Part shown: positions 21,975 to 25,190 of the stretch, piece by piece
Numbering within the stretch: the stretch's first letter is position 1
Layout: each line of letters begins with the position of its first letter
From: Methylopila sp. 73B
Lineage (GTDB): Bacteria > Pseudomonadota > Alphaproteobacteria > Rhizobiales > Methylopilaceae
Assembly (NCBI RefSeq): GCF_000526315.1
Contig: NZ_JAFV01000001.1
Span: 3,350,501 to 3,414,500, forward strand
Length of the DNA stretch: 64,000 nt
Reading direction: 5' to 3'
Notes under the pieces: model-generated
Told to the model about the DNA's origin: nothing
Databases searched by the model: none
Seen by the model: the letters and a program-made list of their open reading frames with translations, nothing else
Translations under genes and position numbers: made by a program

Positions 21975-22022
21975 AAGGCGGCGTCGTCCGGGCTCCATGA
22001 GCCGGGCGAGCCGCCCTTTTTT
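21975..22022 (+). terminator. typA terminator
   Basis: Outer stem GGCGGC (21977-21982) with GCCGCC (22010-22015) and a nearly perfect inner stem around CATGA, followed by TTTTTT (22017-22022). It overlaps the 3' end of the convergent phosphatase gene. Confidence 0.85.
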
Positions 22023-22768
22023 CATCGTGCCGCCTGCACCAGGCGCATCCTGTCTCCGAGGATCACGAGCCCCGACAGCAGGCCCGAGCGGTAGGCGCCG
22101 GTGTCCAGGTTGATCCGGTGCGGATGGTCGAGATCCACGCCGCGCTGGGGCGTGTGGCCGTGGATCACGGCGACGTTCTCGGCGTAGGGGCCCGCGCTCT
22201 CCAGCCAGGGCCGGCGGATCCACATCAGGGTCCGGTCGGTCTGCGCCGCGAGCGACGTCTGCGGGTCCAGCCCGGCGTGAACGAAGACCAGATCGCCGAT
22301 CCGCCACAGCGTCGGCCGCGCGTCGAGCCATTCCAGCAGGTCCGGGCCGATCGCCTCCTTCAGGGCGTCCGTCCAGCCGCTCTCGCCGACGCGCACGCCC
22401 GCCTCGTCCGCCACCTCCCCGCCTCCGAACTCCAGCCAGTGCGCGACGACCTCGGGTCGAGGCTCGGCCAGCACGTCAAGCAGGACGTCCTCGTGATTGC
22501 CCCTCAAGGTGATCGCGGTCGCGCCTTGCGGCGCGGCGCGCGCGAGCCGTAGCGCGGCGAGGCTTCCCGGCCCGCGGTCCACCAGGTCGCCGACGCTGAC
22601 GAAGATCCGCTCCGGCGCCGACGCGATCTCTTCCTCCAGCACGTCGCGCAGGGCCGCGAACAGGTCGATCTGGCCATGGACGTCGCCGACGGCCGCGATC
22701 GCGACCCCCGGCGGCGCGGGACGGATGGCGGGACGCCACTCATGGCGCAGGACGGTGACGGCGACCAT
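22022..22768 (-). CDS. Metallophosphoesterase, PPP-family serine/threonine phosphatase or Ap4A hydrolase-like
   Basis: A 248-residue protein from the ATG at 22768 (MVAVTVLRHEW). It carries the full PPP metal-site set in order: GDVHGQ, GDLVDRGPGS, RGNHED, FVHAGLD and VIHGHTPQ. These ligands bind two metal ions in bacterial PrpA/PrpE-like and ApaH-like phosphatases. Size and motifs fit a soluble phosphatase, but protein phosphatase, Ap4A hydrolase and decapping activities cannot be separated by eye. An in-frame extension to 22903 overlaps the lanmodulin terminator and is unlikely. It lies downstream of lanM in the same direction. Confidence 0.85.
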   Translation of the reverse strand: MVAVTVLRHEWRPAIRPAPPGVAIAAVGDVHGQIDLFAALRDVLEEEIASAPERIFVSVGDLVDRGPGSLAALRLARAAPQGATAITLRGNHEDVLLDVLAEPRPEVVAHWLEFGGGEVADEAGVRVGESGWTDALKEAIGPDLLEWLDARPTLWRIGDLVFVHAGLDPQTSLAAQTDRTLMWIRRPWLESAGPYAENVAVIHGHTPQRGVDLDHPHRINLDTGAYRSGLLSGLVILGDRMRLVQAAR

Positions 22769-22845
22769 GGCGGGCTCTACGAAAGACGAACGGACACGAT
22801 CGAAGACATAACGCGCCGTGCGCGGTTCGCGATGCGGAAACGCGA

Positions 22846-22876
22846 ACGGCCCGCGAGGGGTCTCCCCGCGGGCCGT
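22846..22876 (-). terminator. lanM terminator
   Basis: ACGGCCCGCG (22846-22855) pairs with CGCGGGCCGT (22867-22876), and an inner GGGG/CCCC extends the stem. It lies about 50 bases downstream of the lanM stop on the minus strand; the following U-run is weak, so some read-through into the phosphatase gene is possible. Confidence 0.6.
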
Positions 22877-22924
22877 CGAAGCGTCAAGGACAGGCCGGCG
22901 CATGCGGCCCGTCGATCCTTCGGA

Positions 22925-23344
22925 TCAGTGCGCGATCATCGCGACGAACAGCTGGCCGCGCTTGGAGTCGAGCTCGGCGGCGGTGAGCTTTCCGTCCTTG
23001 TCGGCGTCGGCGCCCTTAAAGCGCTTGCGCGCGATGCTGAGCCACTCGTCGAGCTCGAGCGTCTTGTCGCCGTCCTTGTTGGCGCGCTCCCAGTCCTTCG
23101 CCGTCAGGCGGCCTTCGGTCTCGTTCGGCTCGAGGGTCTTGTCGCCGTCCGGATTGATCGCCTGATAGGTGTCGGCGGCGAGCATCAGAGCCTCGGGCAG
23201 CTCGATGGTCTGATCGCCGTCCTTGTTGTACTTCGCCAGAACTTCCGCGCCGGTCATGGTCGTCGCGGCCTGCGCCACGAGGGGAGCCGCCACGAGGACA
23301 AGCGCCGCTGCGGCGGCGCCAAGACGATGAGTGATCACGCTCAT
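22925..23344 (-). CDS. lanM: Lanmodulin (lanthanide-binding periplasmic EF-hand protein), Hansschlegelia-like
   Basis: Periplasmic protein that binds lanthanides with very high selectivity. The 139-residue precursor has a Sec signal (cleavage near AQA|ATT, residue 27) and four 12-residue EF loops at 40-51, 64-75, 89-100 and 113-124. Loops 1-3 start with Asn (NKDGDQTIELPE, NPDGDKTLEPNE, NKDGDKTLELDE); loop 4 is DADKDGKLTAAE. The spacers are 12, 13 and 12 residues, the same as in Methylobacterium lanmodulin and much shorter than in calmodulin. Loop 2 has the lanmodulin hallmark Pro at position 2; the others have Lys or Ala there. From memory, GRLT-KDW-RANKDGD and the ADA-KDGKLTAAELDSK ending match the Hansschlegelia protein. 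The start has AGGA seven bases upstream. It is alone in its transcription unit; no methanol dehydrogenase is nearby. Confidence 0.9.
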   Translation of the reverse strand: MSVITHRLGAAAAALVLVAAPLVAQAATTMTGAEVLAKYNKDGDQTIELPEALMLAADTYQAINPDGDKTLEPNETEGRLTAKDWERANKDGDKTLELDEWLSIARKRFKGADADKDGKLTAAELDSKRGQLFVAMIAH

Positions 23345-23440
23345 GGTGTTTTCCTGATAATAATAAGCTTAAACGGAGCAATCGGCAGCGGTGACTCCGC
23401 GCGCAACAACAAACCTTGCGGAACCACGCTGCATGGGCTC

Positions 23441-23459
23441 CTTATAAGCGTTTTATAAG
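23441..23459. promoter_or_regulatory. Inverted repeat upstream of lanM (candidate promoter/operator)
   Basis: CTTATAA (23441-23447) and TTATAAG (23453-23459) are perfect complements with a five-base spacer, about 100 bases upstream of the lanM start and 37 bases from the phaZ stop. On the minus strand the arms read TATAAA and TATAAG and could supply a -10 element, with TTGCGC at a possible -35 position but 19 bases away. It stands out as AT-rich in a GC-rich region. Confidence 0.45.
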
Positions 23460-23495: not shown

Positions 23496-25190
23496 TCAGC
23501 CCGCCTCGACGAGGCGCGCCGCTTGCTCCACCCATTTGTCGCGCGCGATACGGCCGGGCGGCGTCATCTTGGCGTCCAGCGACACGCGCTCGTCCTCGGT
23601 CATCCGCGCGATCTGCCAGTAATGGAAGATCCCGGCCTCGTTGAGCACGGCCTGCAGCTTCGGCCCGACACCGGTGATCCGGGTGAGGTCGTCGGCCGGG
23701 CCCTGCGGCTCGGCGAGCCGGGTCGCGCCGTTCGACCTCGCGCGCTTGGCCGTGGCGCGAACCTTGACGGCGGCGTCCGCGCCCGTCGAGGCCTTCGCCT
23801 CGGCGCCGACGTCGGCGGGCTCCGCCTTCTGAGGTGCCTCGGCGGGCGCAGCGGGCTTCGACGGCGACGCGGCGCGCGGCTGGTTCGACAGGATGAAGTC
23901 ATGGATGCGCGGGGCGATCTGCGACCGGAATCGCGAACCGTTGAACACGCCGTAGTGGCCGACCTTGTCCTGCAGATAGTGGACGCGCTTGTCGTCGGAG
24001 AGGCTGGAGCAGAGCGTATGCGCCGCCTTGGTCTGGCCGACGCCCGAGATGTCGTCGCGCTCGCCCTCCACCGTCATCAGAGCGCAGCGGGTGATCTTCG
24101 AGCAGTCCACCGGCTTGCCGCGGTGGGTCATCTCGCCCTTCGGCAGCGACTGCCGCACGAACACGGTGTCGACCGTCTGGAGGTAGAACTCCGCGGTGAG
24201 GTCCATCACCGCAAGGTACTCGTCGTAGAACTCGCGGTGTTTCTCGGCGCTGTCGCCGTCGCCGTCCACGAGGTGGTTGAAGAACTCCTTGTGGGCCTCG
24301 ACGTGCCGGTCGAGGTTCATCGACACGAAGCCCGTCAGCTGCAGGAAGCCGGGGTAGACCTGACGCATGGCGCCGGGGTGCGGCCACGGCACCATGGTCA
24401 CCACGTTGCGCTGGAACCACTCGGTGCCGCGGTCGATCGCGACCTGGTTGACGGCGGTCGGGTTCTCGCGTGTGTCGATCGGGCCGCCCATCAAGGTCAT
24501 GGAATGCGGCACGAAGGGGTCGTTGTCGGCTTCCATGCGCGCGACAGCGGCGAGCACCGGCACGGCGGGCTGACACACCGCCATCACGTGCACGTCGCCC
24601 TTCATGAAGCGGAACATCGAGATGAGGTAGTCGATGTAGTCGTCGAGGTCGAAGGACCCGTCGGTGACCGGGACAAGGCGGGCGTCGGTCCAGTCGGTGA
24701 TGAAGAGGTCGTGGTCCGGCAGCATGGCCTCGACGGTGCCGCGCAGCAGCGTGGCGTAGTGACCGGACATCGGCGCGACGATCAGCAGCTTCGGCTGCTT
24801 GCGGGCGCCCGGCCGCATCGCGCGCTCGAAATGGACGAGGTTGCAGAACGGTCGGCTCCAGACCGCCTTCTCGGTCACCGCCAGCCGTTCGCCGTTGACG
24901 AGCGTCGTGGCGAGGCCGAACTCGGGCTTGCCGTAGCGGCGCGTCGCGCGCTCGAACACCTCGCACATCGCCCCCATCTTCCGACCCCAGTCGGTGTGGG
25001 AGGCCGGGTTCGCGGGGTTCTTGAAGTAGAGCCGACCGGCGTCCGCCAGCGCTCGGGCCGGCCCCAGCGAGGATTGCGCCGCCTCGTACATCCAGTACAA
25101 CGGCATGGTCGTCAGCGAGCCGCCCCAGTCGGCGGTGGCGGGCGCCCCGCCAAACTCGCCGATACCCGCGCTCTTGATGTCTCTCGGCAT
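23496..25190 (-). CDS. phaZ: Intracellular polyhydroxyalkanoate depolymerase with C-terminal helix-hairpin-helix-like domain
   Basis: Mobilises stored polyhydroxybutyrate in the cytoplasm. The 564-residue protein has the PhaZ opening MPLYWMYEAAQSSLGPARAL (about 29-48) and the nucleophile C206 in the lipase-box-like VMAVCQPAVPVL. Later come TDWTDARLVP, the conserved LMGGPIDTRENPTAVNQ, and the catalytic His region VGHYGVFNGSRFR. The usual depolymerase ends near residue 425. Here an Ala/Pro/Lys-rich linker (about 425-499) joins a 65-residue domain (500-564) with LTRITGVGPKLQAVLNEAGI, a helix-hairpin-helix-like motif. The ATG at 25190 has GGAAGGA upstream. The gene is divergent from the RegB-type kinase and upstream of lanM. 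Confidence 0.92.
   Translation of the reverse strand: MPRDIKSAGIGEFGGAPATADWGGSLTTMPLYWMYEAAQSSLGPARALADAGRLYFKNPANPASHTDWGRKMGAMCEVFERATRRYGKPEFGLATTLVNGERLAVTEKAVWSRPFCNLVHFERAMRPGARKQPKLLIVAPMSGHYATLLRGTVEAMLPDHDLFITDWTDARLVPVTDGSFDLDDYIDYLISMFRFMKGDVHVMAVCQPAVPVLAAVARMEADNDPFVPHSMTLMGGPIDTRENPTAVNQVAIDRGTEWFQRNVVTMVPWPHPGAMRQVYPGFLQLTGFVSMNLDRHVEAHKEFFNHLVDGDGDSAEKHREFYDEYLAVMDLTAEFYLQTVDTVFVRQSLPKGEMTHRGKPVDCSKITRCALMTVEGERDDISGVGQTKAAHTLCSSLSDDKRVHYLQDKVGHYGVFNGSRFRSQIAPRIHDFILSNQPRAASPSKPAAPAEAPQKAEPADVGAEAKASTGADAAVKVRATAKRARSNGATRLAEPQGPADDLTRITGVGPKLQAVLNEAGIFHYWQIARMTEDERVSLDAKMTPPGRIARDKWVEQAARLVEAG

Follow-up and report, generated by a model that had tools for sequence, protein, structure and literature searches.

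The lanM gene in the window, the 64,000-nucleotide stretch of Methylopila sp. 73B DNA analysed here, very probably encodes a periplasmic, Hans-cluster lanmodulin of a Methylopila-like methylotroph, and its product would, by analogy, share the metal-binding and dimerisation role of the Hansschlegelia quercus protein (Hans-LanM). The Hans-type lanmodulin is a kind already described; the Hans cluster comprises 20 sequences, Methylopila among them (PMC10232371, Extended Data Fig. 1), and, judged from alignment, the sequence itself appears barely new. What is new here is a DNA element 5' of lanM that is shared genus-wide with a distant lut-like operon.

The lanM open reading frame starts with ATG and is a genuine gene (Table 1). 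Its product of 139 residues, well within a limit of 200, carries four EF loops whose neighbours are 12-13 residues apart (spacers 12/13/12) and a Pro at loop position 2 in EF2 only; a Pro at this position in at least one EF hand is a criterion for lanmodulins (PMC10232371). The first-pass annotation had read the four loops, their spacers and the single Pro in the same way, and the loop positions confirm it, the Pro pattern being also that of Hans-LanM. Its description of the loops as Asn-first holds for EF1, EF2 and EF3 but not for EF4, which opens with Asp.

Table 1. Features of the lanM region, in coordinates of the window
Feature	Coordinates	Strand	Basis or remark
lanM CDS, Hans-type lanmodulin, 139 aa	22925..23344	(-)	stop counted in coordinates
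Signal-peptide-like N-terminus (residues 1-26; cut presumed to follow AQA)	23267..23344	(-)	read by eye; low pLDDT there
EF1 loop, residues 40-51, NKDGDQTIELPE	23192..23227	(-)	loop listing and alignment
EF2 loop, residues 64-75, NPDGDKTLEPNE, sole Pro at loop position 2	23120..23155	(-)	loop listing and alignment
EF3 loop, residues 89-100, NKDGDKTLELDE, with D3, E9 and D11 of the Hans dimer network	23045..23080	(-)	loop listing and alignment
Arg106, counterpart of Hans-LanM Arg100	23027..23029	(-)	alignment
EF4 loop, residues 113-124, DADKDGKLTAAE, Asp-first	22973..23008	(-)	loop listing and alignment
Metallophosphoesterase gene, downstream of lanM	22022..22903	(-)	Pfam Metallophos 2.6e-12; in slot in 11/13 genomes
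PHB depolymerase (phaZ) gene, upstream of lanM	23496..25190	(-)	PHB_depo_C 6.2e-100; slot neighbour in 13/13 genomes
Leader element CTTATTATTA	23358..23367	(-)	22-27 nt before the lanM start codon across the genus
Spaced repeat CTTATAAAACGCTTAT (YTTAT-N6-YTTAT), common to the lut-like operon	23444..23459	(-)	overlapping match on the other strand

Comparison with solved structures by phmmer ranks the Ancylobacter protein 9pi2 (7.6e-46) before 8dq2 of Hans-LanM (4.5e-40) and 6mi5 of the Methylorubrum extorquens protein, Mex-LanM (3.7e-16), calmodulin reaching only 1e-3; across the Hans-LanM region, the protein is 69, 64.5 and 35.5% identical to 9pi2, Hans-LanM and Mex-LanM, respectively. In a maximum-likelihood tree, the Hans-type and Mex-type rows split at 100/100 and our protein stands among the former, a long-branch warning applying to the relationships within the Mex type. 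The marks of the Hans cluster are indeed present, with Asn1 and Glu9 in EF1-3 and a grouping with Hans-LanM that excludes Mex-LanM. Furthermore, the AlphaFold2 model (pLDDT 83.7) adopts the three-helix-bundle fold of lanmodulins and superimposes on 8dq2 with a TM of 0.93 over the target and an rmsd of 1.3; its structure matches under E 0.001 are four lanmodulin entries only, calmodulins being non-significant. Tree, alignment and predicted fold thus bear out the earlier proposal of a Hansschlegelia-type lanmodulin, and the alignment with the M. extorquens and H. quercus proteins, suggested at that time as a check, places the sequence on the Hans side. As for the accompanying view that the Hansschlegelia protein is the closest one, the common cluster stands, whereas the nearest solved sequence is that from Ancylobacter.

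Relatives of lanM are present in all 12 other genus genomes searched. With the NCBIfam lanmodulin model NF053806, the protein described here scores 97 bits, below the cut-off of 135; the intact Hans-type relatives listed score 94-128 bits, likewise under it. Since the only two proteins to pass over 61 genomes are both of the Mex type in the tree, this model likely leaves Hans-type proteins unnamed; its cut-off governs naming and is not in itself a biological feature. The Hans-type lanmodulins of the genus left unnamed in this way include one, in G003, that is letter-identical to Hans-LanM (101.9 bits). Natural mixtures of loop types also occur, with a Mex-like EF1 (Asp1, Gly6, Asp9) joined to a Hans-like EF2 in L013 (G006) and L014 (G007), and a Hans-like EF3 in G006. 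The lanM of G007 (L014/L066) changes frame within EF3 and loses the usual C-terminus, through a frameshift or an assembly error; this assembly has 88% completeness, and its xoxF and lut genes are also broken up.

At each of the 15 side-chain ligand positions in EF1-3 (Asn1, Asp3, Asp5, Glu9 and Glu12 in each loop), the residue is that of Hans-LanM, and the dimer network Asp85/Glu91/Asp93/Arg100, whose role is described together with those of the ligands in PMC10232371, corresponds to Asp91/Glu97/Asp99/Arg106. Among the ligand positions, only EF4 position 3 differs, with Asp here in place of the Asn of Hans-LanM; the differences outside the ligands include helix alpha-1 (ALMLAADTYQAI here, VIHAGATTFTAI in Hans-LanM). 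Because the EF1-3 ligands and the Arg100 network equal those of Hans-LanM, the metal selectivity of its own that had been suggested for this protein finds no support in the sequence, from which the strength of a dimer would not be predictable either.

Metal affinity, dimerisation and physiological role can be sketched by analogy with Hans-LanM. The apoprotein would be exported, disordered, to the periplasm and would bind light lanthanides via the above side chains of EF1-3 plus a backbone carbonyl, EF4 being weak. Metal binding would drive folding, and two molecules would associate head to tail, Arg106 of one entering the EF3 of the other, in a dimer that light lanthanides would hold together more firmly than heavy ones. 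Periplasmic LanM may then buffer lanthanides or pass them on between uptake and XoxF; lanM is dispensable for XoxF-dependent growth in M. aquaticum 22A (PMC9260416), and a delivery role is therefore not established for lanmodulins generally.

The surroundings of lanM agree with the core-genome context read by the first-pass annotation. The gene adjoins phaZ in every one of the 13 genus genomes, with the metallophosphoesterase gene on its other side in 11, and lies near rpsT and dnaA. A histidine-kinase gene queried with this neighbourhood is of the ActS/PrrB/RegB type; Rfam, tRNA and plasmid searches returned no matches. The genome G002 encodes two Hans-type lanmodulins (L009, L019), one in the phaZ slot and the other without slot neighbours or the lanM leader element. 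A look for xoxF and lut genes elsewhere in the window's genome, advised at the outset, recovered two xoxF genes whose products carry the additional Asp of the active site (HDEWDFD, HDEWDYD) and a lut-like ABC operon encoding a substrate-binding protein, a beta-propeller, an ATPase and a permease, of the PQQ-alcohol-dehydrogenase-associated TIGR03861/03863/03864/03866 type. A single mxaF has Ala at the Asp position (HDEWDYA). With two xoxF, mxaF and the lut-like operon, the genome fits a lanthanide user; lanM stands outside this operon, at a distance of 2.4 Mb in contig coordinates.

This setting bears on whether the lanM product could be an ordinary periplasmic calcium-binding EF-hand protein, calmodulin-like or CREC-like, which we hold to be very improbable. 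Pfam does assign it to generic EF-hand families only, and EF4 is a canonical Asp-first loop, but the 12/13/12 spacing, Asn1 and Glu9 in EF1-3, the clade at 100/100 with Hans-LanM, a fold that matches lanmodulins and not calmodulin, and a genome with xoxF and lut-like genes all argue for a lanmodulin. A Hans-cluster lanmodulin could still depart from Hans-LanM in oligomeric behaviour or selectivity, for instance as a monomer or with a stronger EF4, and both the different sequence of helix alpha-1, which is part of the Hans-LanM dimer face, and the Asp at EF4 position 3 speak for it. We nonetheless regard such a departure as unlikely in view of the identity of all EF1-3 side-chain ligands and of the Arg100 network, which is reported to be completely conserved within the cluster (PMC10232371). 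Our preferred reading is a Hans-cluster lanmodulin with a Hans-like role.

The spaced repeat YTTAT-N6-YTTAT has an 11-bp period. It precedes the lanM start by 94-126 bp in 12/13 genus genomes and is found upstream of the lut-like substrate-binding gene in all 12 genomes examinable. The 400 bp upstream of xoxF1 (0/13 genomes) and of mxaF (0/8) lack the repeat, and no copy was seen 5' of lanM in two Xanthobacter genomes or in G027. In the window's genome, the repeat occupies three places, at lanM, at the lut-like operon and at one site beside no convincing gene. Dinucleotide shuffles give about 0.01-0.03 expected occurrences per upstream set, figures that are optimistic since the repeat was defined after inspection of the same regions; with a motif chosen in this way and 13 related genomes, we treat the joint lanM/lut regulon as a hypothesis. 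The shared element suggests joint regulation, and we consider it plausible, if not quite probable, that in Methylopila/Hansschlegelia methylotrophs lanM and the far-off lut-like operon form one small regulon through this repeat and a putative regulator, distinct from whatever controls xoxF1 and mxaF.

That the repeat is a mere core promoter or a generic AT-rich upstream feature, and not a lanM/lut regulatory site, is a somewhat doubtful explanation that nevertheless has to be taken seriously. Besides the post hoc choice of the motif, it draws on the whole-genome count in the window's genome, where the reversed control word is similarly frequent (3 matches versus 4 for the repeat), and on the fact that no binding protein is known for the repeat. 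On the other hand, a generic feature would sit poorly with its absence 5' of mxaF and of xoxF1, whose upstream region is equally AT-rich, and with the shuffles, which expect about 0.01 per set. In four genomes, extra copies of the repeat (L166 2257, L167 5741, L168 2615, L169 2622) stand some 4 kb away from the lut repeat, between a fae-looking ORF, so read by eye, and a divergent periplasmic protein. As marks of lutH, the extra sites near the lut region (G007, G008, G010, G012) were discarded, no TonB receptor being among the ORFs listed there.

Closer to the gene, CTTATTATTA precedes lanM in 13/13 genus genomes; the match is exact except in G004, which has the close variant CTTATTATTT, and five genomes contain no exact copy other than the one at lanM. 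We would guess at a function in translation or as a leader. As a shared operator it was rejected, being mostly lanM-specific and missing 5' of both the lut-like operon and xoxF1 in the window's genome. TTATTAT was likewise set aside as a regulon mark, its 32 genome copies equalling those of the reversed control word; three copies lie 5' of xoxF1, yet the structured repeat is absent there, and no link to xoxF1 is claimed through it. Before xoxF1, two ATAATAA sites, at about -296 and -268, are retained within a well conserved block in 13/13 genomes (L029, L092-L103), and 8 genomes retain a third one near -70; this block is a candidate xoxF1 control region.

Hans-cluster lanmodulins are useful in rare-earth separation, and the present protein adds a natural variant in which the binding residues are the same, helix alpha-1 differs and EF4 is slightly altered. 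The shared repeat, for its part, would give a direct and cheap handle on the joint control of lanM and lanthanide-uptake genes, and on the regulator, in organisms with lanM outside the lut cluster.

Among named lanmodulins, that of Methylopila capsulata DSM 6130 (L002/L025) is identical over 107 aligned mature residues and occupies the same locus, with one signal-peptide residue different (MSVF for MSVI). The lanthanum-bound protein of Ancylobacter lacus (PDB 9pi2) shares the Pro at EF1 position 11 and the Asp-first EF4; it comes from another genus and is known here as a PDB sequence alone. Hans-LanM (PDB 8dq2, 8fnr) has in common the EF1-3 side-chain ligands, the Pro in EF2 only, the Arg100 network, the spacing and the fold, as well as the phaZ-lanM-phosphatase slot at its locus L063, where LanM matches 8dq2 at every one of the 107 residues shown; beyond its other helix alpha-1 and EF4 position 3, it differs by the Pro at EF1 position 11 that is present here. 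Mex-LanM (6mi5, 8fns) shares four EF loops at lanmodulin spacing and the same fold, but has Pro at position 2 in all four loops, Asp9 for Glu9 and no Arg100 network. Finally, while lanM of Methylorubrum extorquens strain AM1 sits within the lut cluster (PMC7391723), the gene described here lies far from the lut-like operon.
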